Assembly: GCA_024280265.1 (NCBI GenBank)
Contig: JAJRQL010000087.1
Coordinates: 1-39,867 of the forward strand
DNA from: Deltaproteobacteria bacterium
Lineage (GTDB): Bacteria > Desulfobacterota > Desulfobulbia > Desulfobulbales > Desulfocapsaceae
Direction of reading: 5' to 3'
DNA: 39,867 bases
Part shown: positions 18,290-34,720 of the stretch, piece after piece
Layout: each line of letters starts with the position of its first letter
How positions within the stretch are numbered: position 1 is the first letter of the stretch
Translations under genes and position numbers: made by a program
Notes under the pieces: model-generated
The model's input: the letters and a program-made list of their open reading frames with translations, nothing else
Databases searched by the model: none
Told to the model about the DNA's origin: nothing

Positions 18290-19573
18290 CTAATTAGCCT
18301 TCTTCCTGAGATATGTAGGTGTCTCCAGATATTCCTCGTTCCATGGCTTACGCTCCTTGCCAGACGGCCGGGGCTCATTAGTGGAAATACCATGATTTTC
18401 AAACCCGTTAAAGTTGGATGAGGAAAAGATGGAGCTTCCTGATGGCTGGTTAGGTGGTGCCGGAGTGAGATTTCCTGATCTGACCTCATCTTCACGGGGC
18501 TCCCGGGAAGGGACAGTCTTGGCAGGAATATTCACCTGTACCATGTTCTTTTTCTTTGGGACTGATTCGCCAACACCTGTAGCAATAACTGTCACATGCA
18601 GCTCATCACCAAGGGCATCATCATAAAGTGCACCAATAACCACCTTGGCCTCATCATCAACCTTATCCTGGATAAGAGCAGATGCCTCCATGAACTCCGC
18701 CATGGTGAATGATTCTTCAGAGGCGGAAATATTAATGAGGAGGCCACGGGCACCATCAATCCCCACATCTTCCAGCAACTGATTATCTATTGCCCGATTA
18801 GCAGCCTCCGTGGCACGATTTTCACCAACTGCAAAACCGGTTCCCATGATAGCAGGTCCAACCTCACGCATCACAGTACGCAGATCAGCAAAGTCAGCAT
18901 TCATAAGTCCTGCAACATTTATAAGATCTGTGATACCTTTCACGGCCTACAGTAGAACCTTATCGGCCATACTGAGCATATCAGAGAGCTTGGAGTTCTT
19001 CTGCATCAGGGAAAGCAGTCTGTCATTGGGAACAGTGATAATTGTATCGGCGTACTTACGCAGCTCTTCCCAGCCCTGCTCCGCATTACGCATACGAAAT
19101 TTCCCCTCAAAATGAAAGGGTTTGGTAACCACCGCAACGGTTAAGGCGCCCATTTCCCGACTTGCCTTCGCGACAATGGGCGCAGCACCAGTCCCTGTTC
19201 CACCACCCAATCCGGCAGCGACAAAAACCATGTCAGCCCCTTTGAGGCTGCCTGTTATTTCATCTATTGATTCAAGAGCTGCCTGCTCACCTGTTTCCGG
19301 ATCTGCACCAGCCCCAAGTCCTTTGGTAATTCCGGGACCGATCTGAAGGCACACATCAGCACGCGACTGATCCAGCGCCTGCTTGTCCGTATTTGCTGTG
19401 ATGAACTCAACCCCCTGCAGACGGTTCTCCACCATTGTGTTAATGGCATTACCACCTCCGCCACCAACGCCAATGACTTTAACAACCGCAACACTTTCTG
19501 TTTCCGCCATTCTAAACGGCATATTTTCTCCTATTTTCACGAAATCTGCAGCACCCAAACGCAACATTTCCAT
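18290..19573 (-). pseudogene. ftsZ: Cell division protein FtsZ interrupted by one in-frame TAG (N part 18947-19573, C part 18290-18943, same frame); possibly readthrough, real lesion or sequence error
   Basis: N part GVGGGGGNAINTM...GLGGGTGTGAAP...PNDRLLSLMQKNSKLSDMLSMADKVLL-TAG. C part AVKGITDLINVAGLMNADFADLRTVM...TPTYLRKKAN-TAG. Reverse strand of 18941-18970 reads ATG GCC GAT AAG GTT CTA CTG TAG GCC GTG AAA GGT. The likely native start is MAETESVAV or MPFRMAETES. Confidence 0.9.
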
Positions 19574-19645: not shown

Positions 19646-20914
19646 TCACATTATCTTACGTAACCAGTCTTTCATCCTGCCAACCATCGAACTTTCGCTA
19701 TAGCGATTGTCCAGCTGATGCTGACGCCCGTACATTACAAGCCCGACTCCTGTGGTACACCTGGGGGTATTCACCTCATTCACTTTTCCGCCGATCTGGG
19801 CCGGATATCCGACACGAACAGGCAGGTCAAATATCTGTTCCGCAAGATCGGCAAGGTTGGCAAGCAATGCTGTTCCACCAGTTATCACCACTCCACCGTT
19901 TATTTTATTTTTGAGACCGCAGTTTATCAGATCCTGGTTGATCATCTCAAGGATCTCAACCATCCTCGCCTGGATAATATCTACCAGCACCTTCTGAGTC
20001 ACCTTACGCGGCTCACGATCGCCCACCGTTGGTACATCAACCACATGATTTGGTTTAACAACAGACGAAATGGCACAGCCAAAATCCTCTTTCAGACGCT
20101 CAGCATCCTGCAGTGGTGTGCGCAACCCCACAGAGAGATCATTGGTCAAGTTATGACCGCCAAGACCAATCTCACAGGTATGGCGGATGGTTCCATCGCA
20201 ACACACTGCCAGGTCTGTGGTACCACCACCTATATCGAGCAGGGCCACTCCAAGCTCCATTTCATCAGTACTCAGCGTTGCGTGTGCCGAGGCAATTGAC
20301 TCAAGCACCATGTCGGCAACCTCAAGCCCCGCCTTATCACAGCAGGTATACAGATTATGAACAGCTCCCATGTCTGCTGTTACTATGTGAACATTGGTTA
20401 CCAGTCTCACCCCTGTCATACCAATCGGATTCTGAATACCGGTATGATCATCCACCATATACTCCTGGGGGAGGACATGGATAATCTGCTGGTTTTCCGA
20501 TATCTTCACAGTCCGGGCGGCGACAATAACATCTTCCACGTCGCTCTCCTTAATTTCCCGGCCGTTTATAGCCACAATTCCGGGGCTGTTAAAACCTTTG
20601 ATATGATTTCCAGCAATTCCAACATACACGGTATGTAAATCACACTGCGCAGATTTTTCGGCATCAGTGACGGCCTTACGGATTGATTTCACGGTGGATT
20701 CTATGTTCACAACCACCCCTTTTTTCAGACCAACTGAAGGGGCTGTACCGATACCGATTATATCAATTCCATCTTCACATACTTCACCCACCACACAACA
20801 TATTTTAGTAGTCCCTATATCCAGGCCAACCACCAGATCACCAGGTTTTCTGGACTCTTTCACAAGTTCCAACTCAACATTTCCAACTGCTTTTTTGCTA
20901 TCTATCTCGTCCAT
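19646..20914 (-). CDS. ftsA: Cell division protein FtsA
   Basis: LVVGLDIGTTKICCVVGEV, LLDIGGGTTDLAV, GGVVITGGTALL. C-terminal amphipathic MVGRMKDWLRKIM. Confidence 0.96.
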   Translation of the reverse strand: MDEIDSKKAVGNVELELVKESRKPGDLVVGLDIGTTKICCVVGEVCEDGIDIIGIGTAPSVGLKKGVVVNIESTVKSIRKAVTDAEKSAQCDLHTVYVGIAGNHIKGFNSPGIVAINGREIKESDVEDVIVAARTVKISENQQIIHVLPQEYMVDDHTGIQNPIGMTGVRLVTNVHIVTADMGAVHNLYTCCDKAGLEVADMVLESIASAHATLSTDEMELGVALLDIGGGTTDLAVCCDGTIRHTCEIGLGGHNLTNDLSVGLRTPLQDAERLKEDFGCAISSVVKPNHVVDVPTVGDREPRKVTQKVLVDIIQARMVEILEMINQDLINCGLKNKINGGVVITGGTALLANLADLAEQIFDLPVRVGYPAQIGGKVNEVNTPRCTTGVGLVMYGRQHQLDNRYSESSMVGRMKDWLRKIM

Positions 20915-20918
20915 TCAC

Positions 20919-21917
20919 TCACCCTGCCAGGCTTTTGGCCACTAAAACTTTATTTTCCTGATAATCCATTCGAATATAAGCAACACTTTCAATCAAAACT
21001 TTCCCTTTTTTCTTTCGGTACAAGATTCCCAGCACTTTCCGCAACTGATAATATTTTCTTTTTATATCTCCTTTACCAAAATAAATAGGAAAGGGGTGCT
21101 TCACTAGAAATATGACCAATTCACCTTCTGGCGTGCAATGTATTTCCGACACATTCTGTGCCGGGAGATTAGGATTATTCATCCTTGCCAATTTTAAAAA
21201 TGATAGTATTTCTGATATAATCTTCTCTCTTTCCGACCCAGAAGTAATACCATCAATCCCGGTAATAACTGGAAAGTCGATATCCTGGCCAGGCGCCACC
21301 ACTGCAAAATTTTCCCCCTTTCTACTGAGATACCTGAAACCCTTTTCTCCGTCAATTGCAACCAGTGCCAGAGGCCGATGTTCCTGTATTGAAACCTCCA
21401 ACCTGTCCGGCCATATCCTTCTGACATTGGCATATTCCACCCAAGGATGCTGCTGGAGACGAGATTTTACTGCAGCAGCATCAATAGTGAGCATATTCAT
21501 TTCATAGGATATACCAGAGAATTTTTTCAAGTCTCTGTCACTTGTCACCACACAACCACTAAACTCAATATCGTGGATGCGAAAATATTGCAGATCACCA
21601 AGCAGGTGTCTCCCCCAGCCAGGAAGGACCAAACCGCATCCAAGGAGCAACAGACCAGCAATCAGCAGGAACCTCAACGGTATCCTCTGACCACTCCCTC
21701 CCCTGTGCAAACTACCCAGCTTCTGTTTCTGCTTCGTACCTGCCTTTCTGGCCTGCCATTTTTCCCGTAAACTTTTTTTCCTGACACCTGTACTGGAGTG
21801 ATCTGTACCAGAATATCTTGGTGTTAGCTTCAGGCAAGCCTTCTGGTCACCGCCGCTTTGCCGAACCATACTCTTTAAAAGAGATATCACCTTCTCAGAC
21901 AATGTCTGTCTAACCAT
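20919..21917 (-). CDS. ftsQ: Cell division protein FtsQ (POTRA)
   Basis: Single N-terminal TM, then FRIHDIEFSGCVVTSDRDLKKFSGI...HPWVEYANVRRIWPDRLEVSIQEHRPLA. Position between murB and ftsA. Confidence 0.92.
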   Translation of the reverse strand: MVRQTLSEKVISLLKSMVRQSGGDQKACLKLTPRYSGTDHSSTGVRKKSLREKWQARKAGTKQKQKLGSLHRGGSGQRIPLRFLLIAGLLLLGCGLVLPGWGRHLLGDLQYFRIHDIEFSGCVVTSDRDLKKFSGISYEMNMLTIDAAAVKSRLQQHPWVEYANVRRIWPDRLEVSIQEHRPLALVAIDGEKGFRYLSRKGENFAVVAPGQDIDFPVITGIDGITSGSEREKIISEILSFLKLARMNNPNLPAQNVSEIHCTPEGELVIFLVKHPFPIYFGKGDIKRKYYQLRKVLGILYRKKKGKVLIESVAYIRMDYQENKVLVAKSLAG

Positions 21918-21931
21918 ATTTTTATTCCTGA

Positions 21932-22864
21932 TTACAAAAAGTGTACTTCAGGGGATAATCGAATTCCACTATCTTTTTCAACTTTATCTGTTACCATTTT
22001 CATCAGCCTGTAAACATCTTCCGCAGTTGCCGCACCTGTATTTACAAGGAAATTGGCATGAACCTCAGAGACCATTGCCCCGCCGCATCGCGTGCCTTTC
22101 AGGCCTGATGCCTCAATCAGCCTCCCGGCTGAATCACCTTTCGGGTTTTTAAAAAAAGAACCCGCGTTCTTTTCCATTTTCGGCTGACTTTTTTTTCTCT
22201 TCGCTGTGTTCGCCTGACAACGACTGCGAAGAACAGTCTTTTCACCACGCCGTAAAATCAGATCCACTGAAGTTATGATTCGTTTTTCCTCTCCCACTCC
22301 CTGGTTACTCCAGCATCGGTAGCCAAAATCAAGTTGTTTTCGCATCAATCTTTCGGCTCCCTTTGCAAGGGACAAAACTTCCATTGCTTCGATAACACCA
22401 GCCATATCCCCCCCGAAGGCACCAGCATTCATCAGTGCTGCCCCTCCGATGGATCCAGGAATACCCGCTGCAAACTCAAGTCCTTCGTAATCATGTTCCA
22501 CACACCAGTTGAGCAGCCTGGTTAGGCTGCAACCTGCAGCAACCCGAACTCTGATACCGCCGGTCACCGATCTTTCAAGAAGCTTCACCCCCGACATTTT
22601 TTTGCCAAAAAGAAGAACCACACCTTCAAAACCGCTGTCTCCAACAAGGAGGTTACTTCCCCTGCCAATAAAACGCCACGGGAGATCATTGTCAGAAACA
22701 AAACAGATCAAACGCTGTAGCTCCGCGATGCTCTCGACTTTAATCAATGCCCCTGCAGGCCCACCAATACCAAAAGATGTATATGGTGCAAGGGGACTAT
22801 CCCACAGAACCTCTTTCTCTGTAAGATCCCCCAGCCTTTCTCTCAGTGTCTGAGAAATCATCAT
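21932..22864 (-). CDS. murB: UDP-N-acetylenolpyruvoylglucosamine reductase
   Basis: [70 protein letters not shown]. Confidence 0.96.
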
Positions 22865-24261
22865 GCCTGCTGTTTTTCCAGAAGAAGTTCAACCAGTGCC
22901 TCTCCAGCACGTACAATATTTCCGGCACCCAGAGTCAAAACCAGGTCACCGGGCTTCAACTCAGGCAGAAGTGCTTCTGCAAGATTTTCGACCCGTGAAG
23001 CAAATTTTGTCTTTCGCTGACCATGTTTCTTTACTTCATCAAGCAGAATTTCACCCGATATCACCGGATCAGGGGGTTCACTGGCTGCATAAATTTCAGT
23101 CATTACCAGATAATCCGCCTGATGAAAACAGGTTCTAAACTCTTCAAGCAGGGCCAGAGTCCTGCTGTAACGATGCGGCTGGAAAAGCACCACCAGCCGT
23201 TTTTGAGGCCATCCCTCTTTTATGGCCGCCAGTGTTGCCCGAATTTCTGTGGGATGATGCCCATAATCATCAATAACCGTTATCCCCTGTCCCTCACCCT
23301 TAAACTGCATCCTGCGCTGCACGCCCTGAAAACCTGCCAATGCTTCACTTATGGTGTCAAAGGGGATTTCCAATTCCAGCCCCACAGAGATCGCAGCCAA
23401 TGCATTGTATACATTATGTTTTCCTGCAAGTGCCAGATCAATGCGTCCCAATTTTCTGCCGTGGTGGACGACACCAAACTTCACCCGCCCGTTGGCTGCT
23501 TCTATCCGCTCTGCTGCAAGGTCGGCCTGAGCTGTAAAACCATAGGTCAGTTTCCGCTTCTTTATTCGGGGCAGAATATCCGCTACATTGGGATCATCAA
23601 GACAGATAATAACCGCACCGTAAAATGGAATTTTATCAATAAATTCCAGAAAGGTATCTTTGATATGTTCTATATTATCATAATAATCCATATGCTCCAG
23701 ATCAATATTCGTCACCACTTCGAGCACAGGGGCAAGCTTTAAAAAAGAACCATCACTCTCATCTGCCTCTGCAACCAGAAACTCACCTTCCCCAAGTTTT
23801 GCATTACCTCCCAGACTATCCACCTTACCACCAACCACAATGGTGGGATCAAGGCCTGCCACATGCATCATCCAACTAACCATGGAGGTTGTCGATGTTT
23901 TGCCATGGCTTCCGGCGATGGCAATACCAAATTTTTTCAACCGCATAAGTTCAGCCAGCATTTCCGCCCGCTGAATCACCGGAATTTCCGCAGCAAGTGC
24001 TGTAACCACTTCAGGGTTATCACCACGTATTGCTGATGACGTGACCACAACGTCTACTCCTTTTACCCAGCGTCCGTCATGGCCTTTGTGGATAAGACCT
24101 CCAAGGGCCTGCAGGTTTCTTGTTATGGCTGAATCACCAAGATCCGAGCCGGATACTTCATAACCAAGGTTCAGGAGAAGCTCAGCAATGCCACTCATTC
24201 CAATGCCACCTATACCTACAAAATGTATTTTCTTTGTCTTGTTATACATTACTTCTTTCAC
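22861..24261 (-). CDS. murC: UDP-N-acetylmuramate--L-alanine ligase
   Basis: [57 protein letters not shown]. Start may be the ATG at 24249. Confidence 0.97.
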
Positions 24262-25372
24262 CCCTGCTTCCGGTTTCAGACGAACAGCTCATCAGACAGA
24301 GACACTCATCAACAATACGTTCTGCAGCCTGCGGAAAAGCTCTCTGGCGCATAGATTGACCCATTTCCTCAAGCTGAGATGGATTGGAAAAGAGGACTAC
24401 GAGCTGTCCCGCAAGGGTCTCAACGGTGAGATCCTTTTCAACAAACATCAGGGCCCCTCCACCTTCAACATAATATTGAGCATTCTTTTCCTGATGATTA
24501 TCAGCAGCATGGGGATACGGAATCAGGATAGCAGGTTTTCCAAGAACAGCCAGTTCTGCAAGGGTTGTCGCTCCTGCCCGTGACACCAGCAGGTCAGCTT
24601 CCCTATAAATAGCTGCCATATCATTGAAAAACGCTGCAACCGTAGCATCAATACTGTTTTCTCGATACACGGCCTTCACCTCTTCCAGATCCGCAGCACC
24701 CGTCTGATGTATTACTTTAACTTTAGCAAGTTCTGTTCCACATCCTGCAAAAGCTCCACTCACCAACTGATTGACCCGATGAGCGCCAAGACTTCCCCCC
24801 AGTACCAATAATGTGGGTTGCCCCCCAACTTCCTTTTTCATTTCAGAGAGTTTGATGATGGCATCCCGTACCGGATTTCCGGTAAGAACTGTCTTTTTTT
24901 TATCAAACCACCTTTCACTTCCGGGCAGAGATATGCAGATTCTGTTCACCAGACGTGACAGTTTCCTGTTGGCAAGACCGGGAACCGAGTTCTGCTCATG
25001 GATCAGGGTGGGTCGCCCCAGAATTCTGGCTGCAGCAACCACAGGTCCTGTAACATAGCCCCCGACGCCAACCACAAGATCCGGTTTAAAGCGAAGGATG
25101 TGATACATGGCTTCAAGACAGGACAGTGGCACCACCATTACCCCCTGAAGCAGACTCAGAAAGGTTTTCCCCTTCAACCCTCTGGAATGAATTGAACAGG
25201 TGGCATAGCCATATTGTTTCAGACTGCTTTTATCCATTTTTCGCTTTGTCCCCACAAAGAGGATCTCACTTCCAGGAAGCCTTCGATTTATTGCTTCAGC
25301 CGTGGCAATGGCTGGAAACAGATGTCCACCAGTCCCACCTCCTGTAAACATAAGTCGCACAGCCCTGCTCAT
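24242..25372 (-). CDS. murG: UDP-GlcNAc:lipid I N-acetylglucosaminyltransferase
   Basis: [61 protein letters not shown]. Confidence 0.97.
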
Positions 25373-26760
25373 GAAACTGCCCTCAGCTCTTCCCTGTCCG
25401 GCAACCCATTCACTGCCGCGGTGAAAACATCGCCACGCTGACCATAATCATCAAACATATCAAAACTTGCACAGGCAGGAGCCAAAAGGACTGTGTCTCC
25501 ATTACTGGCGCTACCTGCGGCAATGACAACCGCATCATCCATCGACTGAGAAAACTCTATATCAACGATATTTTTCATCACATCAGCTATGCTCTGGGCT
25601 GCCTCACCTATCAGGATCAGTTTTTTTACCTTTTGCCGAACGGGTTCTTTCAACACGGCATATTCCTCACCCTTATCACGCCCACCTGCTATGAGGATAA
25701 CATTTCCGGAAAATGAGGCCAGGGCACTACACACAGCACCCGTATTAGTTGCCTTTGAATCATTGATATAATCAACCCCCCCGAGCTTTCTGACATGCTG
25801 GAGACGATGTCTTGCCGGAACAAAACCTGCGAGGCCTTGCTGGATAGCATCTTCGTCACATCCGGACAGCAGGGCCGCAAGAGATGCTGCACTCGCGTTG
25901 AGAAGACCAGTATGTGACTCCAGGGATGTCGCTGCAACACTCACCTTTACAGCAACTCCTGCATGGCTGAGTGTGATTTCAGTACCATCCCCCACCGCAG
26001 CACAGCCACTCCCAACTCCGCCAAAACAAAGAATCTCACGCTCACCTGGCAACATCCTCACCTGCTGGCAGAGTGGATTGTCGCCACTGACAATTGCGAT
26101 ATCACCGTCCTTCTGGTGCTTAAACATTCGCATCTTTGCAGCAGTATAAGCGTCCATGGTCTTGTGACGATCCAGATGATCCGGGGTCACATTTAACAGT
26201 ATCCCAATATCAGGACGAAAGGTACCTGCTGATTCCAGCTGGAAACTGGACAGCTCAAGTACCAGATACTCCACATTCTCACTCCGCATGAGATAATCCA
26301 ATACAGGAGTTCCAATGTTTCCACCCACAAAAACCTTTTTTCCAGAAGCGCGCAGTAACTCAGCTATCAGTGCAGTCACCGTGGTCTTCCCATTAGTACC
26401 TGTGACGGCAATCACCGTCTCAGACAGATATGGTGCAGCCAGTGCCAGTTCACCAAGGATAGGAATATCTCTCTCCCGCACCTCTGAGAGAACGGGAAGA
26501 TCCGTTGGCACCCCAGGACTGATCGTTACAAAATCAGCATGAAGCATGGCACCTCTTCCCTCAGCAGGAGACATATACGAGACCCTGTTGAGGCTGAGGT
26601 AGGCCTGTTCTTCAGCTGAAAGATCTGTAAAATCACGATCATCAACCACTGCCACCAGAACCTTCCTGCTAAGCAGGAACTCCACCATGGCTCGCCCGGA
26701 AACTCCCATTCCCATGACAACTGCCCGAAGACCAGGCTCTATTTTTTCATTCCACTTCAT
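25369..26760 (-). CDS. murD: UDP-N-acetylmuramoylalanine--D-glutamate ligase
   Basis: GMGVSGRAMVEFLL, AVTGTNGKTTVTALIAELL, NVTPDHLDRHKTMDAYTAAK, YINDSKATNTGAVCSAL, LLAPACASFDMFDDYGQRGDVF. Confidence 0.97.
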   Translation of the reverse strand: MKWNEKIEPGLRAVVMGMGVSGRAMVEFLLSRKVLVAVVDDRDFTDLSAEEQAYLSLNRVSYMSPAEGRGAMLHADFVTISPGVPTDLPVLSEVRERDIPILGELALAAPYLSETVIAVTGTNGKTTVTALIAELLRASGKKVFVGGNIGTPVLDYLMRSENVEYLVLELSSFQLESAGTFRPDIGILLNVTPDHLDRHKTMDAYTAAKMRMFKHQKDGDIAIVSGDNPLCQQVRMLPGEREILCFGGVGSGCAAVGDGTEITLSHAGVAVKVSVAATSLESHTGLLNASAASLAALLSGCDEDAIQQGLAGFVPARHRLQHVRKLGGVDYINDSKATNTGAVCSALASFSGNVILIAGGRDKGEEYAVLKEPVRQKVKKLILIGEAAQSIADVMKNIVDIEFSQSMDDAVVIAAGSASNGDTVLLAPACASFDMFDDYGQRGDVFTAAVNGLPDREELRAVS

Positions 26761-27839
26761 CAGCGTAATTTCAAGGTTGCTATGGCAAAAAGACCAAGAA
26801 TAATAGAAACAATCCAGAACCTGACAACCACCTTTGGCTCATGCCAGCCTTTTTTCTCAAAATGATGGTGAAAAGGTGCCATAAGAAATATCCGTTTTCC
26901 ATGGGTCACTTTGAAATATCCTACCTGGAGAATCACCGAGAGTGCCTCCATTACAAATATCCCGCCCACAATGGCCAAAAGAATTTCCTGTTTGATTATG
27001 ATTGCGACCCCGCCAAGAGCACCGCCAAGGGCAAGGGAACCCACATCCCCCATGAAAATCTGGGCAGGATAAGCATTAAACCAGAGAAAACCGAGGCAGG
27101 CTCCCACCATGGCACCACAGAACACAGCAAGCTCTCCAGCTCCCTGAACATAGGGAATCTGCAGGTAATCAGCCAACACTGCATGCCCAGCCAGATAGGA
27201 AAAAACAAGATACACTGATGCCGTAATGACGGTGGGACCTGCCGCAAGGCCATCCAAGCCATCGGTCAGGTTTACCGCATTTGAGGAACCAACGATTACA
27301 AAGATTGCAAATATGACGTAAAACCAGGAAAGATCCGGCTGGATATTTTTAAAAAACGGCACACTGAGCTGCCCGTCATAGCCCGGGTATAAAAGGACAA
27401 ACAGACCCACCACAGACGCACCACATATCTGGAGAAAGAGTTTACCCCGCGCACTGAGGCCAGCGGTTGTCATCTTTTTTATCTTCTGAAAGTCATCGAT
27501 TCCGCCAATAAATCCAAAAAATAACAGAACAAAGAGCAGCAGCCAGACCAGAGGATTGTCCAGCCTCGCCCACATCAGCGTAGAGAGACTGATGGATGAG
27601 AGAATCAGCACTCCACCCATTGTGGGCACACCCTGCTTGGCAAGGTGAGTCTCCGGTCCGTCATTGCGCACCACCTGCCCAATTTGATACTGCTTCAGCT
27701 TGCGGATAAACCACGGCCCTAAAATCAGCACGATGAGAAATGCCGTCACCGCCCCCCCAATGGAACGTACGGTAATGTACCGGAATACATTTAACGCGCC
27801 GATACTGCTATGAAGCGGATAAAGAAGATGATAGAGCAT
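26760..27839 (-). CDS. mraY: Phospho-N-acetylmuramoyl-pentapeptide-transferase
   Basis: [78 protein letters not shown]. Confidence 0.98.
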
Positions 27840-30800
27840 TTATTGTTCCCCGATAAAACGTTCAACAAGACTTTCCAGATGCATGCCACGCGAACCCTTC
27901 ACCAGGATATAACTTCCCGACCGAATTTCACCGCGCCCAGCCATTTCTTTCAACCAGCAAAGGCATTCTTCCTGTTCTTTAAAAATTGTAACCCGTTCCT
28001 CTTGCATTCCCGATTTAACGGCACCAGAAGCTACACTGGAAGCAAACTCACCAAGTACTGCAAGATAATCAATACCGCATTCGGCGACATATGCACCGGT
28101 CTTCTTATGCAGAGTTTCACTCTCGGAACCAAGTTCCAGCATATCTCCTAGCACCGCAATTCGACAGGAACTGCCCAGATCTTTCAGGGTCGTAATACCT
28201 GCCTTCATGGATTCCGGATTTGCATTATAAGTATCATTTAGTATACGACAGCCTTCAGGACCTGAAAAAATCTGCATCCGGCGATCTTCAGGTCTGAATG
28301 CCATTAATCCCCTTGCTATTGTCTCAATTTCAATTCCTGCGGCAACCCCAATTGCCGCTGCTGCCAAAGCGTTTGAAATATTATGGCGGCCTGGCGTCTG
28401 TAGCACAACAGCTGTTGCCTGCTGGTACACATGAAGGATAAATGCCACATTCTCTTCGCCACCAGAGGTTTTTTGAACTGCATACACATCCGGTACGAAT
28501 GATTCTCCACTGGTCACGCCAAAAAAGATTTTTTCCTGCTCACAGCTTTTTGCAATTTCAAGCACTCTCGCATCATCACTATTTACGATCAATGTGGTAC
28601 CTTGGCCACAACCCTGAAAAAGCTCAGCTTTTGCCCTGGCCACTCCTCCGATATCACCTAAACCCTGGAGATGAGCTCCATGGACATTTACGATACATGC
28701 AATATCGGGATCGGCAATCTCGGTGAGCCTTGCTATTTCGCCAGGAGCGTTCATTCCCATTTCAAAAATAGCTGCAGTGTGCCTTGGCGACAGCGGAAGC
28801 AGTGACAGAGGAAGGCCAATAAGGTTGTTAAAATTTCCTTCGGTTTTAAGTACTTTTCCCGGCGAATCAGCGGGACCATCAGGCCACTGTGCCCTGAATA
28901 TTGAGGCGCACATCTCCTTGACTGTTGTCTTACCACTGCTCCCTGTAACAGCAGCAACAAGCGGAGAATTCATCTCCTTAATAACAGAACGCCTGTAAGC
29001 TGCAAGATCCCCCAGTGCCTTTTCAGTATCCCTCACCAGCACCACCGGAACCGGCAGGGCATCTTCAGGCACATCTTCAAGAACGAGGCAGGCAGCCCCG
29101 GCAGATACAACCTGATGAACGTATTGATGCCCATCAAAGCGATCACCTTTGAGGGCAACAAAGATATCACCCGCTTCAATTGTCCTGGAATCCGTACTGA
29201 TGGCACCAAACTCTTTTTGCTGTTGCAACTCACCCTGGCCGATGAGCTCTCCTGCAGTTGCACGTAGAAGGGAATAAATGTTCCAGTTACAAAGTGCCTC
29301 TGCGGCCTCAAGGCTGTCGTCAAAGAACTTTTTACCGCTGTTGCTCAACTGATACTTTTCGTGTCCTTTTCCTGCAATCAGAACAATATCATTCCCCGTA
29401 GCCGCTACGATTGCGGCCTTTATAGCCCGATGTCGATCAGCTATCACAACATAGCCGGTCTCGTCTTCACCCTTTGAATAGAGCCAGTCCACATGGTGCG
29501 GCCTGCCACTCATGCCCTTTTCAATGTCCAGAAGGATGCTATCCGGATCCTCAGTTCGCGGGTTGTCGTTCGTAAGAACAACAACATCTGAATACTCTTC
29601 GGAAATCTTCCCCATCAGAGGCCGTTTTCCGACGTCTCTGTCCCCTCCACATCCAAAGACTGTGTATAGTCTGCCATGTGGAAGTTGTTTCACAGACCGA
29701 AGCACCTGCCCAAGGGCATCAGGGGTATGGGCATAATCAACAAACACAGCAGGTCTAAAGGTAACTTCCTTCCGGGCCACCCGTACCTGTTCCATGCGCC
29801 CCGGTGCTCCTGTTGCTTTTTCCAAAGCATCACATATTACAGTAGCTGCAATGTCAGCGCACCTGGCCATCGAAAAAACTATCTGTAAATTTGCAACATT
29901 GAAGTCTCCCACCAGAGGTGACTCAAGGAGGCACTCTCCCTCTGGCGTGTGGAGCCGAACTTTAGTTGATTGCTGGCTATTGGTCACTAAAAGAGGATAT
30001 ATATCACTCCGGGGCTGTTCACCACAACTCAACACCTCCAGACCATTCCGGAGACAACTCAGCAGCAATTTTTCACTCCAGCTCCTATCCTCTGCCGAGA
30101 AACTGACAACAGCCTTTCCCCGAGGACGCATGTGATTTTTAAAGAGAAGTTTTTTGGCACAAAAATAACTCTCCATATCGAGATGATAATCGAGATGATC
30201 ACGGCTCAGATTTGCAAAAGCCGCCACATCAAAATTGATGCTTCCAATACGATTTTGCTGAAGCCCATGTGAAGATACCTCCATCACTACGGAGTCGACC
30301 CCATTGTCTGCCATCAGGCGCAGGGTCTGCTGGAGAAGAAAGGGTTCCGGGGTTGTAAAAGCCGCTGGACGCAGGATACAATTCCCATCGGAATCATAAT
30401 AACGATAGTTGATGGTTCCAAGAACGCCAGGTTGCTTTCCGGCACCACGCAATACCGATTCAAGGAGGTAACTGACACTGGTCTTGCCATTTGTGCCAGT
30501 GACCCCAAACATTGTTATCCCCTCTGACGGATACGAGAAGAGCATTTCAGCCAGTTCAGCATAAATTCTTCTGGTATCTGCAGCCACAAGAATACAGATA
30601 TCATCTTCGGGAAGGTCGTCTGGCGTGATACGGCCCTCTTCAACAAGAATCGCAGCACAGTGTGCAGCACCAGCCTGGGCGACAAAATCATGCCCATCAC
30701 TTGTAGCTCCTGAGATTGCGATAAAAAGAGAACCCGGAGCGGCTTTACGGGAATCAATGGTTATCCGATTAAGAGGACAGTTGGAAATGTCTCCTGACAA

Positions 30801-30989
30801 CAGGGAGATCCCTGGGATTGCGGTAATGATGGAAGCAATGTCCATGTCGGTGGAAGAGCACACAACAGTCCCCGGTTGTTCACATATCCAGTTATTCCCT
30901 GTGTGCATTTCCTGTTCTACAGCCATTTTCTTCTCTTTTACAACCATAGTACTCTTAAAACCGAAGATTTTATTTCGGTCCGGCTCCAC
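27840..30989 (-). CDS. murE/murF: MurE-MurF bifunctional fusion (meso-DAP-adding MurE followed by MurF)
   Basis: One uninterrupted 1049-aa ORF. MurE motifs GVTGTNGKTSVSYLLE, NLSRDHLDYHLDMESY, NDNPRTEDP, AGKGHEKYQ, then MurF motifs DSRTIEAGDIFVALKGDRFDGHQYV, AVTGSSGKTTVKEM, NDTYNANPESM, LGDMLELGSESE, VKGSRGMHLE. Confidence 0.95.
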   Translation of the reverse strand: MEPDRNKIFGFKSTMVVKEKKMAVEQEMHTGNNWICEQPGTVVCSSTDMDIASIITAIPGISLLSGDISNCPLNRITIDSRKAAPGSLFIAISGATSDGHDFVAQAGAAHCAAILVEEGRITPDDLPEDDICILVAADTRRIYAELAEMLFSYPSEGITMFGVTGTNGKTSVSYLLESVLRGAGKQPGVLGTINYRYYDSDGNCILRPAAFTTPEPFLLQQTLRLMADNGVDSVVMEVSSHGLQQNRIGSINFDVAAFANLSRDHLDYHLDMESYFCAKKLLFKNHMRPRGKAVVSFSAEDRSWSEKLLLSCLRNGLEVLSCGEQPRSDIYPLLVTNSQQSTKVRLHTPEGECLLESPLVGDFNVANLQIVFSMARCADIAATVICDALEKATGAPGRMEQVRVARKEVTFRPAVFVDYAHTPDALGQVLRSVKQLPHGRLYTVFGCGGDRDVGKRPLMGKISEEYSDVVVLTNDNPRTEDPDSILLDIEKGMSGRPHHVDWLYSKGEDETGYVVIADRHRAIKAAIVAATGNDIVLIAGKGHEKYQLSNSGKKFFDDSLEAAEALCNWNIYSLLRATAGELIGQGELQQQKEFGAISTDSRTIEAGDIFVALKGDRFDGHQYVHQVVSAGAACLVLEDVPEDALPVPVVLVRDTEKALGDLAAYRRSVIKEMNSPLVAAVTGSSGKTTVKEMCASIFRAQWPDGPADSPGKVLKTEGNFNNLIGLPLSLLPLSPRHTAAIFEMGMNAPGEIARLTEIADPDIACIVNVHGAHLQGLGDIGGVARAKAELFQGCGQGTTLIVNSDDARVLEIAKSCEQEKIFFGVTSGESFVPDVYAVQKTSGGEENVAFILHVYQQATAVVLQTPGRHNISNALAAAAIGVAAGIEIETIARGLMAFRPEDRRMQIFSGPEGCRILNDTYNANPESMKAGITTLKDLGSSCRIAVLGDMLELGSESETLHKKTGAYVAECGIDYLAVLGEFASSVASGAVKSGMQEERVTIFKEQEECLCWLKEMAGRGEIRSGSYILVKGSRGMHLESLVERFIGEQ

Positions 30990-32877
30990 TTGTCTGCATG
31001 CTTTTTATCTGCATTACATTTTCCGGGGTCCTGTCAATCGCAAGGGTTAAGATACAAACATCCCCTTTCTCAAGTACGTTTCCGGCCTCAGGGCTCTGGG
31101 ACACTATCCGACCTGTTCCTCGCACTGTTACCTCAATTTCAGCTCCCTGCAGAAGGCGTAATCCTTTTCTCAAACTGAGCCCGATGAGATCAGGCATTTT
31201 CACCTCTTGACCTTCCAGTATCCTGGCTAGGTGATCAGATTTGACGACATCCCCGGTACCATCACCCTGAAAATTATGCTCTACGCCCTTCTTCATTTCA
31301 ACCATGTCTGCGACATTCCAGTAGACCTGCTGCAAGGCAACCATGGATGGGATGACCTTATCTATGCCCTGACATAAACCGTCCACGCCAGTATTCTGTT
31401 CTGGTAACACCTGGAGTTCTTCATCCCGTGCGACAATGAAAAGTATCATTTCAGGATTTCTGGCAGGAATCACAGTGATGGCCATACGATCCCGAACATA
31501 GCTTCCGCCACGATCGTTGGGAACAAGCGAAACGGTTTCACCACAAAGAGAGGATGAACCAAGTATGCCCGGTCTCCCCTGAGTCAGGAGTAATGACTGC
31601 AGTGCTTCCGAAACCAGAGAGGGCAAAACATTCCGTCCCTGCAACTCTCCCCGGAAGGCATCATAGTAAAACTCCTTTTGTCCAGGTCGTTCCATAATCT
31701 TGTTAAGAATATGAGGTTGTATCTTTTTCCCTCCATTCAACAGATGTGCCATCCCAAGCAAAACTTTCAACGGTTTCGCTGTTGCCGGGATGGCGCCATA
31801 ATCAAGCCCGGGTCGGGTTTTTTCAAACCTGGGAGTATCTGTCTGGAGTTTTTTTCCTCCGGAAAAGTCCACGTTCATTTTCGTGGTCAACTGTAGACGC
31901 TCAAAAAGACGAAGTTGGCTGCCAAGATCAGTCTTTGCAGATACCAGGCTCCAGGGATACACCTGTTTCCCCTGCTCCCACCCGCCTTGCAGGAGTGCTG
32001 CATCCCTGTAAAAGCGGCGAATCTCATCAGGAACCACCATCGGGGTAAGAAGAAGATTATCCAGGACCCCTTCCCGACCCTGCCAGATCTTGTTGGGATT
32101 GTAGGTCGGATAACTGGCCCCTGCAATAATTCGTCCCTGATCGGTATCAAGAAGCAGAGAACTAATGCGGTCTCCTCCACTTCTGTTTGCAAGGCCCCGC
32201 ACATACTTCTCAAGAATGGCCTGAATCTTCATGTCCAGAGTCAGGACCAGATCATGGCCGCGACCTGTTGTATGAGTAAGACCTTTCAAATCTATGGCAG
32301 GGAAATCTTCCTGCCGCACCCTATCCTGACTCAGAAGCCGGTTATAATAATGCTCAACTCCGGCAAGACCAAGATTTTTTTCTGAATACCCAATCAGCTG
32401 TGATGCATTTTCCTGTTGCGGGTAAGCTCTTGCCACTTCTCTGTGCAGATAAACCCCGGGAAGGTTCAACCGGGTAATCGCATCCTCGTCCTCCTGACCG
32501 ATCGCTCTCTGCAACCAGACGAGCTGGGAATCCCGTTCGATTCGGGAAACAATCTCAGATTCAGTCAGACCGAGTATTTCCGATAGCTTTTCAGCGGTCT
32601 CTTCTATATTCCAGACATCCCTTGGACGAACGTACAGGGACACCCGCTCAAGTGTCCTGGCAAGTTCCTTAAAATTACGATCATAAATCGTACCACGAAC
32701 ATTGTCTACCACTTCACTCTCTGACGGAAATGTCTCTCGCCAGATATCAACAATATTCGCCAGTTGTTCTTTATAGAGAGTTCCAGCGCCTGTTATGGCT
32801 ACAAGGAGTATAATCAAAAAAAGCCAGAGCTTTCGCCTTCCGGTATCTGTTGTTCTGAGACGAGATCTCCTGGCCAT
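30970..32877 (-). CDS. ftsI: FtsI/PBP3-like class B penicillin-binding protein homologue with C-terminal PASTA domain; transpeptidase motifs appear degenerate
   Basis: RGTIYDRNFKELA, LNLPGVYLHREVARAYPQQENASQLIGYSEKNLGLAGVEHYYNRLL, LVLTLDMKIQ, DQGRIIAGASYPTYNPN, PLKVLLGMAHLLNGGKKIQPHIL and PASTA VKMPDLIGLSLRKGLRLLQGAEI. Position between ftsL and murE. Confidence 0.9.
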   Translation of the reverse strand: MARRSRLRTTDTGRRKLWLFLIILLVAITGAGTLYKEQLANIVDIWRETFPSESEVVDNVRGTIYDRNFKELARTLERVSLYVRPRDVWNIEETAEKLSEILGLTESEIVSRIERDSQLVWLQRAIGQEDEDAITRLNLPGVYLHREVARAYPQQENASQLIGYSEKNLGLAGVEHYYNRLLSQDRVRQEDFPAIDLKGLTHTTGRGHDLVLTLDMKIQAILEKYVRGLANRSGGDRISSLLLDTDQGRIIAGASYPTYNPNKIWQGREGVLDNLLLTPMVVPDEIRRFYRDAALLQGGWEQGKQVYPWSLVSAKTDLGSQLRLFERLQLTTKMNVDFSGGKKLQTDTPRFEKTRPGLDYGAIPATAKPLKVLLGMAHLLNGGKKIQPHILNKIMERPGQKEFYYDAFRGELQGRNVLPSLVSEALQSLLLTQGRPGILGSSSLCGETVSLVPNDRGGSYVRDRMAITVIPARNPEMILFIVARDEELQVLPEQNTGVDGLCQGIDKVIPSMVALQQVYWNVADMVEMKKGVEHNFQGDGTGDVVKSDHLARILEGQEVKMPDLIGLSLRKGLRLLQGAEIEVTVRGTGRIVSQSPEAGNVLEKGDVCILTLAIDRTPENVMQIKSMQTSGAGPK

Positions 32878-32919: not shown

Positions 32920-33291
32920 CTAAAACTTAGGGTACTGATCAGACGTTGGTCTTTGGATCGCCAGTTCATTTGAAGCCATTGTCCCCACTACTTCAGAAGA
33001 AAAAAGCTGCGCTTTTCTGGCACGAAGCAGGATGTTATTTCCCATCAGTTCTGCATGACTGGCTTCAATATCTGCGATCTCTGCCGCAAGCTTATCAGCT
33101 GAGCCATGCAGCAGGCTAAAGGAAATAACAACAAACAGGACTGAAGCCAGTAAAACTTTGGCCACTCCGGCCCAGAGCTGTTTTCCACCAGGCAACACAA
33201 AGCCATGGGACCGCCTGCTACTGGTGCCGGTGTGATAGCGAAAAGAATTTCTACGTGGAATCATCGTGTTAGCAGAAGGATTAATAATCAT
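32920..33291 (-). CDS. ftsL: FtsL-like cell division protein
   Basis: Small bitopic protein (TM VAKVLLASVLFVVISFSLL, then heptad-like region) between rsmH and ftsI. Start taken at MIINPSANT. Ends with TAG. Confidence 0.75.
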   Translation of the reverse strand: MIINPSANTMIPRRNSFRYHTGTSSRRSHGFVLPGGKQLWAGVAKVLLASVLFVVISFSLLHGSADKLAAEIADIEASHAELMGNNILLRARKAQLFSSEVVGTMASNELAIQRPTSDQYPKF

Positions 33292-33307
33292 GGTTTCACC
33301 TCTTCTT

Positions 33308-34207
33308 TTATATCTTTTCAGCAACCCGTAAGCGGGCACTCCGTGACCTTCTATTAATTTCCCTTTCCACTGAGCCTGCAACAACAGGCTTTTTGGTCAG
33401 AACGTTCAACTCTTCATTGTCACGAAACTTTCGTTTCACCATCCGGTCTTCCAGCGAGTGGAAGGAGATGACACAAAACCTGGCACCTGGCTTCAGATAC
33501 TGAACACCGTCTTCCAAAATCCCAGCAAGATTCTCCAGCTCCGTGTTTACAGCTATTCGCAGGGCCTGAAAAACCCGTGTGGCAACATGAATTCTCTTTG
33601 GATGAAATGGCCTGGGTACTGCCCGTGCCACAAGATCCGCAAACTCTTTTGAAGTAGTAACAGGAGACACAGCACGCTCTTTCACAACATATGATGCAAT
33701 CCTTCGTGCCTGTTTCTCCTCGCCATAATAGAAACAGATGTCGGCAAGCTCCTCTTCTGTACATTCGGCAAGAATTGATGCTGCGGTGACCTCCCTCCTG
33801 ACATCCATTCTCATATCCAAGGGCTCTTCCCGTTGAAAACTGAATCCACGCTCTCCCATGTCAAGTTGTAGAGAAGAAAGACCAATGTCAATGAGGATAC
33901 CGTCCACCAAGCCAACTCCAGCCTCGGCCAGACCGGCACCAATTTCAGAAAAATTCCTTCTCACTATGGTTAACCGATCACCATACGCTTTCAAACGTTC
34001 TCGACTCCTGTCGATAGCCGCAGCATCCCAATCAAAAGCTATCACGCGGCCACCGGGAGAACTCTGCTTCAGGATGGCCTCACTGTGGCCACCAAGCCCC
34101 AGAGTGCCATCCACATAAACCCCACCGCTGTGAGGAGCAAGAAACTCAAGAGTCTCCCGGGGTAAAACTGAACAATGGATTTCAGCTGCAGTCTGCTGCT
34201 TACCCAT
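33308..34207 (-). CDS. rsmH: 16S rRNA m4C1402 methyltransferase RsmH (MraW)
   Basis: GGVYVDGTLGLGGHSEAIL, GILIDIGLSSLQLDMGERGFSF, HVATRVFQALRIAVNTEL, FCVISFHSLEDRMVKRKF. Confidence 0.97.
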   Translation of the reverse strand: MGKQQTAAEIHCSVLPRETLEFLAPHSGGVYVDGTLGLGGHSEAILKQSSPGGRVIAFDWDAAAIDRSRERLKAYGDRLTIVRRNFSEIGAGLAEAGVGLVDGILIDIGLSSLQLDMGERGFSFQREEPLDMRMDVRREVTAASILAECTEEELADICFYYGEEKQARRIASYVVKERAVSPVTTSKEFADLVARAVPRPFHPKRIHVATRVFQALRIAVNTELENLAGILEDGVQYLKPGARFCVISFHSLEDRMVKRKFRDNEELNVLTKKPVVAGSVEREINRRSRSARLRVAEKI

Positions 34208-34677
34208 CAGAGAATCCCCAGCTTGGACAGACCCTCATCAAAGCTGTCAAAGTTCTCTCGTGTTGCCTTCAATTCAAACTGCCAGGCCTCTTTGTCCCAT
34301 ATTTCAACCCAGTCACGCATACCAGTAAGGATAACCTCTTTCCCAATCTGCAGTTCGCTGCGAAGTGAGGCAGGAAGTACAATCCGGCCCTGCTTATCAA
34401 GGTTACAGGCCGTTACGCCTGAAAATACAAGACGAATAAAACTTGTTAAACCAGGCTGCTCCTTACCCTGATCCACCAGTTTATCTTCAATTATTTCCCA
34501 CTCAGAAACCGGATATACCCGCAGATGTTGTTTCCATGGAGCGATCATCAGAGTCCCGGAACCATACTGGGCAAGCACGTCCCGGAACCGACTTGGAAAG
34601 TTCAACCTTCCTTTGCCATCCAGAACGTGCTCAGACATGCTCCGAAATCTGCTTTTTATGATTTTAGTATCACCCAT
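34207..34677 (-). CDS. mraZ: Transcriptional regulator MraZ
   Basis: SEHVLDGKGRLNFPSRFRDVL and CNLDKQGRIVLPASLRSEL (two MraZ/AbrB-like DxKGR motifs). The ATG at 34677 is preferred over the TTG of the ORF track (34713). The stop overlaps the rsmH ATG. Confidence 0.9.
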   Translation of the reverse strand: MGDTKIIKSRFRSMSEHVLDGKGRLNFPSRFRDVLAQYGSGTLMIAPWKQHLRVYPVSEWEIIEDKLVDQGKEQPGLTSFIRLVFSGVTACNLDKQGRIVLPASLRSELQIGKEVILTGMRDWVEIWDKEAWQFELKATRENFDSFDEGLSKLGIL

Positions 34678-34720
34678 CCAACACCACCCTTGACCCACTT
34701 CACTCCATTTCAAACCACCA
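34673..34720 (-). promoter_or_regulatory. Putative MraZ operator (array of TGG(G/N) repeats)
   Basis: Reverse strand reads TTATGGTGGTTTGAAATGGAGTGAAGTGGGTCAAGGGTGGTGTTGGATGGG. TGG starts lie at 10, 10, 11 and 10-bp steps, resembling the described MraZ box. Confidence 0.6.

Follow-up and report, generated by a model that had tools for sequence, protein, structure and literature searches.

A putatively inactive FtsI accompanies the absence of FtsW in the division gene clusters of Desulfobulbia

Results

Organisation of the dcw cluster

The window, i.e. the complete 39,867 nucleotide stretch of a Desulfobulbia (phylum Desulfobacterota) contig that was analysed, carries a dcw cluster on its minus strand which is orthodox apart from its ftsI gene and an empty ftsW slot. 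The cluster commences with mraZ (34207..34713) and mraW/rsmH (33308..34207), both identified by Pfam/profile matches, followed by a gene in the ftsL slot (32920..33384) whose product has a transmembrane helix and a helical periplasmic part, and for which no match was found in Pfam or NCBIfam; it is referred to here as FtsL-like. Next are the ftsI homologue described below (30970..32877) and a murE-murF fusion (27840..30989), which overlaps the 3' end of the former by 20 nt. This fusion is a single open reading frame of 1049 codons, and is also observed in several members of the order (Desulfobulbales) and in the families f65 and f75 of the same phylum. The remainder of the cluster is composed of mraY (26760..27839), murD (25369..26760), murG (24242..25372), murC (22861..24261), murB (21932..22864), ftsQ (20919..21917), ftsA (19646..20914) and ftsZ (18290..19573). 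The last of these contains one in-frame TAG at codon 209 (18947-18949, minus strand), where two relatives (L384 and L382) encode Gln, and this is likely to represent a single-base assembly error.

In relatives which possess FtsW, the ftsW gene is located between murD and murG; in the window these two genes overlap by 4 nt (25369..25372, minus strand) and the slot is empty, a feature that had been overlooked in the first-pass annotation of this DNA. A SEDS gene adjoins murG in all ten of the FtsW-bearing Desulfobacterota dcw clusters that were read and in two clusters of Omnitrophota, and in none of the FtsW-less clusters.

Domains and fold of the FtsI homologue

The gene in the ftsI slot is positioned between mraW/ftsL and murE, as expected for FtsI/PBP3, and is an uninterrupted frame with an ATG start encoding a protein of 635 aa, here termed pseudo-FtsI. 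The protein comprises a transmembrane helix, a pedestal (residues ~59–205), a region with the fold of a penicillin-binding protein (PBP) transpeptidase but lacking its active site (~206–485), a linker, and a PASTA domain (~557–612; 31042..31209, minus strand). In Pfam the PBP_dimer pedestal scored 44 bits (cut-off 24.4) and the PASTA domain 37 bits, also above its cut-off, while the Transpeptidase family PF00905, an alignment to which had been proposed as a check in the first-pass annotation, reached 13.4 bits against a gathering cut-off of 22.1. Additionally, the FtsI and SpoVD models of NCBIfam matched chiefly residues 56–283, far under their cut-offs, and the top sequence matches in the PDB were to FtsI/PBP3 of Pseudomonas aeruginosa (E ~7e-21), covering residues 60–331 only.

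An AlphaFold model of pseudo-FtsI (pLDDT 76.8, pTM 0.69) matched PBP3, PBP2x and SpoVD over its full length, indicating a true FtsI-fold protein, and the PBP fold was retained in a second predicted model, built for an orthologue belonging to the order's other half. Pseudo-FtsI is thus FtsI by descent and by its predicted fold.

Loss of the active site and its spread across the order

Pseudo-FtsI and other members of the order were aligned with 21 canonical FtsI sequences derived from nearby Desulfobacterota, Omnitrophota and one Firmicutes record. The seven catalytic positions are occupied by S, K, S, N, K, T and G in all 21 canonical proteins. In pseudo-FtsI, the SxxK position reads E285-I-R-R288 (32014..32025, minus strand; E285 at 32023-32025 and R288 at 32014-32016), the SxN position G319-S-Q321 (31915..31923) and the KTG position E447-T448-V449 (31539-31531), while the serine of SxxK is retained in none of the 45 aligned order members. 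The first-pass annotation had placed the substitutions in SxxK and KTG at these same coordinates, which proved correct upon re-reading, and its view that all three motifs are missing from a protein with intact fold anchors is borne out by the alignment and the structural model.

Judged by named relatives, the window belongs to Desulfocapsa or a neighbouring group. A family profile matched 196 of the 197 class genomes, and these all fall within one order. SxxK was then scored downstream of the P-x-Y-N-x-N anchor, wherever this anchor was found, in 141 distinct sequences rather than in all 196 genomes. Neither SxxK nor KTG was present in any of the 141 distinct Desulfobulbales orthologues, as compared to all three motifs in 21 of 21 FtsI outgroup sequences, with all seven residues in place, which argues that the loss is not due to chance. 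The orthologue survey suggested in the first-pass annotation therefore yielded no close relatives with canonical motifs, and the motif-less form of FtsI is, judged by sequence, fixed across the order as sampled. The lone apparent exception, L172, is an outgroup sequence titled Desulfobacterales, canonical but truncated, while SxxK-like patterns in some order members (PGSSLK, PGTTLK and PGASLR) are located in the C-terminal PASTA domain and not in the active site.

Selection acting on the inactive protein

When compared to its two nearest relatives, pseudo-FtsI displayed a dN/dS of ~0.1 overall and of 0.08 in the transpeptidase domain, values which indicate that purifying selection acts on the gene within the genus. 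Over the order as a whole, the pedestal has a mean pairwise identity similar to that among canonical FtsI proteins (0.37 versus 0.40) and that of the PASTA domain is higher (0.457 versus 0.346), whereas the transpeptidase core has drifted (0.21 versus 0.47). Nearly all conserved positions of the transpeptidase domain are fold residues that are also present in canonical FtsI, and neither newly invariant residues nor a new candidate catalytic set was detected in this domain across the order. Taken with the motif survey, these data strongly support the proposal, already made in the first-pass annotation, that pseudo-FtsI is catalytically dead yet maintained, as far as sequence comparison can indicate.

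Census of SEDS proteins and class B PBPs

PF01098 was matched in 190 genomes of the class, and 185 of these encode exactly one SEDS protein. The other five displayed more than one match, which in one case represents a split gene and in others stems from assemblies with 5–8% contamination, and a further seven class genomes had no match. Outside the class, 113 of 141 genomes of the phylum encode two or more SEDS proteins. Where the single SEDS protein of the class could be located, it is RodA encoded beside MrdA. No second SEDS protein (FtsW) was found in the class using PF01098, although a strongly diverged copy could fall under the sensitivity of this model. By this census, no cognate FtsW is encoded for pseudo-FtsI, and a canonical FtsW-FtsI synthase would be lacking.

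Nearly all of the 38 genomes closest to that of the window harbour two class B PBPs (PF03717), one canonical and one degenerate. The canonical protein of the window's genome matched TIGR03423 (pbp2_mrdA) with 732.9 bits against a cut-off of 455, has an intact active site, and its gene adjoins those for RodA and an MreD-like ORF. Searches with PF03717 and PF00905 ruled out a further canonical FtsI at another locus of this genome. The suggestion in the first-pass annotation that a true septal transpeptidase is encoded elsewhere was thus not upheld in this form, since MrdA/PBP2 is the sole class B PBP besides the degenerate FtsI in the 38 closest genomes.

One order member (G138, 99% complete) shows no SEDS match and its degenerate FtsI is the only class B PBP, which may reflect either a gap or a wall made by class A PBPs only. 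The reverse case is found in two other members of the phylum (G051:C30 and G055:C166), where a dcw-encoded FtsW and a canonical FtsI are accompanied by no further SEDS protein or class B PBP, and the RodA-MrdA pair was not detected.

Convergent loss within Desulfobacterota

The combination of FtsW absence and FtsI degeneration extends beyond the class, to other families which possess a single SEDS protein. In the families f27, f58, f65, f71 and f75, FtsI is 538–643 aa in length and lacks SxxK and KTG, while f34, f64 and f74 retain only remnants of 267–457 aa in the ftsI slot; the remnants of f34 and f64 are short, so that their homology to FtsI is based on position and weak profile scores. For the PASTA domain, the f34 protein scored above the Pfam cut-off, whereas one f64 protein and the f74 protein gave matches that did not reach it. 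The FtsI of f65 has lost the PASTA domain as well, indicating that this domain is not universally required. Conversely, every checked genome with a dcw-located FtsW encodes a canonical FtsI, that of G100 reading FGKTGT. The genome comparison therefore shows that the loss of FtsW and the apparent death of the FtsI active site are coupled.

The number of origins of this state was evaluated with AU topology tests and a tree inferred from seven concatenated dcw proteins. A single clade of all FtsW-less lineages, and with it a single origin, was rejected (p = 4.7e-5), whereas one clade of these lineages without f34 and f64 was not rejected. Deep nodes among the other FtsW-less families had low support. 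At least two origins are thus required for FtsW-less division clusters with a dead or truncated FtsI. The murD-murG interval of f64, where ftsW would be expected, contains a small polytopic membrane ORF of 156–267 aa (L375:1654-2454 and L373:3151-3618, both minus strand), possibly a remnant of FtsW; the longer version had no Pfam match.

Discussion

FtsW-FtsI is treated as the near-universal synthase of the septal wall, and FtsI is a drug target. To our knowledge there is one well-described exception, represented by a set of clostridia. The data presented here place beside it an entire class, cable bacteria and cultured genera among its members, in which FtsW is absent and FtsI appears to be dead, and within the phylum this state was reached convergently, at least twice.

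With FtsI dead and FtsW missing, the division wall must be built by some other enzyme. We consider it probable (roughly 0.7) that pseudo-FtsI is a retained, non-catalytic divisome and peptidoglycan-binding scaffold, that the septal FtsW-FtsI synthase has been lost, and that the septal wall is provided by a class A PBP and/or RodA-MrdA. Unlike the death of FtsI and the loss of FtsW, the scaffold role and the replacement synthase are what we infer. Of the structural or peptidoglycan-sensing role put forward in the first-pass annotation, its plausibility stands, since the pedestal and PASTA domains are conserved while the transpeptidase core drifts; the role itself belongs to the inferred part. 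Allosteric activation of FtsW, which would be the simplest function for a dead FtsI, is excluded because ftsW is gone, and pseudo-FtsI should therefore act on FtsQ, the FtsL-like protein or FtsA, and on the replacement synthase. In the proposed scenario, another synthase would have taken over septal wall synthesis, after which FtsW would have been lost and the catalytic function of FtsI would have decayed. The membrane anchor, pedestal and PASTA domain would have been retained because they connect septal peptidoglycan with FtsQ, the FtsL-like protein and FtsA, and because they recruit or regulate the replacement synthase, for which the likeliest candidate would be a class A PBP, acting alone or with a RodA-MrdA pair shared by elongation and division.

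As there is no second FtsI and MrdA is the one further class B PBP of the 38 closest genomes, the PBPs surveyed leave, L,D-transpeptidases aside, either MrdA or a class A PBP as the cross-linking enzyme. That a class A PBP is the septal synthase, with pseudo-FtsI as its divisome regulator, is a serious contender at close to even odds. Genes for class A PBPs containing both GT51 and transpeptidase domains were found, among them that for an unusual protein of ~1,100 aa which recurs in almost every one of the 38 closest genomes, and there is direct precedent in Clostridioides difficile (PMC10693644, PMC12539705), although an order-specific link of any class A PBP to the dcw cluster was not found. 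The alternative that RodA-MrdA alone serves as a dual-use synthase, recruited to the Z-ring by pseudo-FtsI/FtsQ while class A PBPs only reinforce the septum, is possible but on balance doubtful. It is favoured by this pair being the sole SEDS-class B PBP pair in the class, canonical and always adjacent where read; however, in the C. difficile precedent a class A PBP took over septal synthesis (PMC10693644), and G138 shows no SEDS match. The latter genome lends the class A PBP a slight lean, with the proviso that a contig gap may account for it.

A new catalytic activity gained by the transpeptidase domain through other residues appears very improbable: the domain is retained and foldable, and purifying selection acts on it within the genus, but no residue in it is newly invariant across the order, and f34, f64 and f74 have it shortened or missing. 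The notion of a pseudogene, assembly artefact or lone deviant assembly, which the fragmented assembly (281 contigs) and the in-frame TAG in ftsZ might encourage, has a negligible probability and is ruled out by the identical state of 141 distinct sequences, including closed genomes, and by the dN/dS of ~0.1.

Viewed against known systems, pseudo-FtsI resembles canonical FtsI/PBP3 (PF03717 and PF00905, often with PASTA) in dcw position, membrane anchor, pedestal, PBP fold and PASTA domain. It differs from canonical FtsI in lacking SxxK, SxN and KTG and an encoded FtsW partner. Division without FtsW-FtsI as such is already known from C. difficile, in which there is no functional FtsW/FtsI in division and the class A PBP1 is the septal synthase (PMC10693644), and where a non-catalytic divisome role of the class B protein PBP3 was demonstrated experimentally (PMC12539705), a role akin to that which pseudo-FtsI may have. 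However, C. difficile retains its dcw SEDS protein and class B PBP, specialised for sporulation, while in Desulfobulbia FtsW is physically absent and the FtsI motifs are lost across a Gram-negative class. In Bacillus subtilis and Staphylococcus aureus, as cited in PMC12539705, the transpeptidase activity of FtsI is dispensable and its essential non-catalytic role is to activate FtsW; pseudo-FtsI may share such a non-catalytic role, but these FtsI proteins keep their active site and Desulfobulbia have no FtsW to activate.

In the accessible text of Geerlings et al. 2021 (PMC7873302), zipA, ftsW and ftsN are listed as absent in two cable bacteria and two Desulfobulbus genomes, and FtsI is described as recruited and active in Desulfobulbaceae; the loss of the FtsI motifs, its class-wide extent and its convergent coupling with ftsW loss are not reported in that text. 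A literature search that took in few subscription journals returned no published pseudo-FtsI of this kind with regard to lost active site, class-wide extent or convergence.

In its broadest form, the interpretation would be that an entire Gram-negative class divides in an FtsZ-dependent manner without a dedicated SEDS-class B PBP septal synthase, FtsI serving as a non-enzymatic, peptidoglycan-binding scaffold which guides either a class A PBP or the rod synthase to its septal site, with at least two origins in Desulfobacterota and some lineages having whittled FtsI down to little beyond membrane anchor and PASTA; we regard this as evenly balanced. Desulfobulbia would then separate, in nature, the structural role of FtsI from catalysis and from FtsW activation, and their cultivable members would offer a setting for finding by which other means a Gram-negative septum can be built. 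With regard to the class A PBPs, the protein of ~1,100 aa (G000:C243, L004:16-3351) carries a large insertion in its transpeptidase domain, and a PBP1A-type protein (G000:C9, L002) reads GGKPGTT at the KTG motif, as compared to GGKTGTT in the relative G012.
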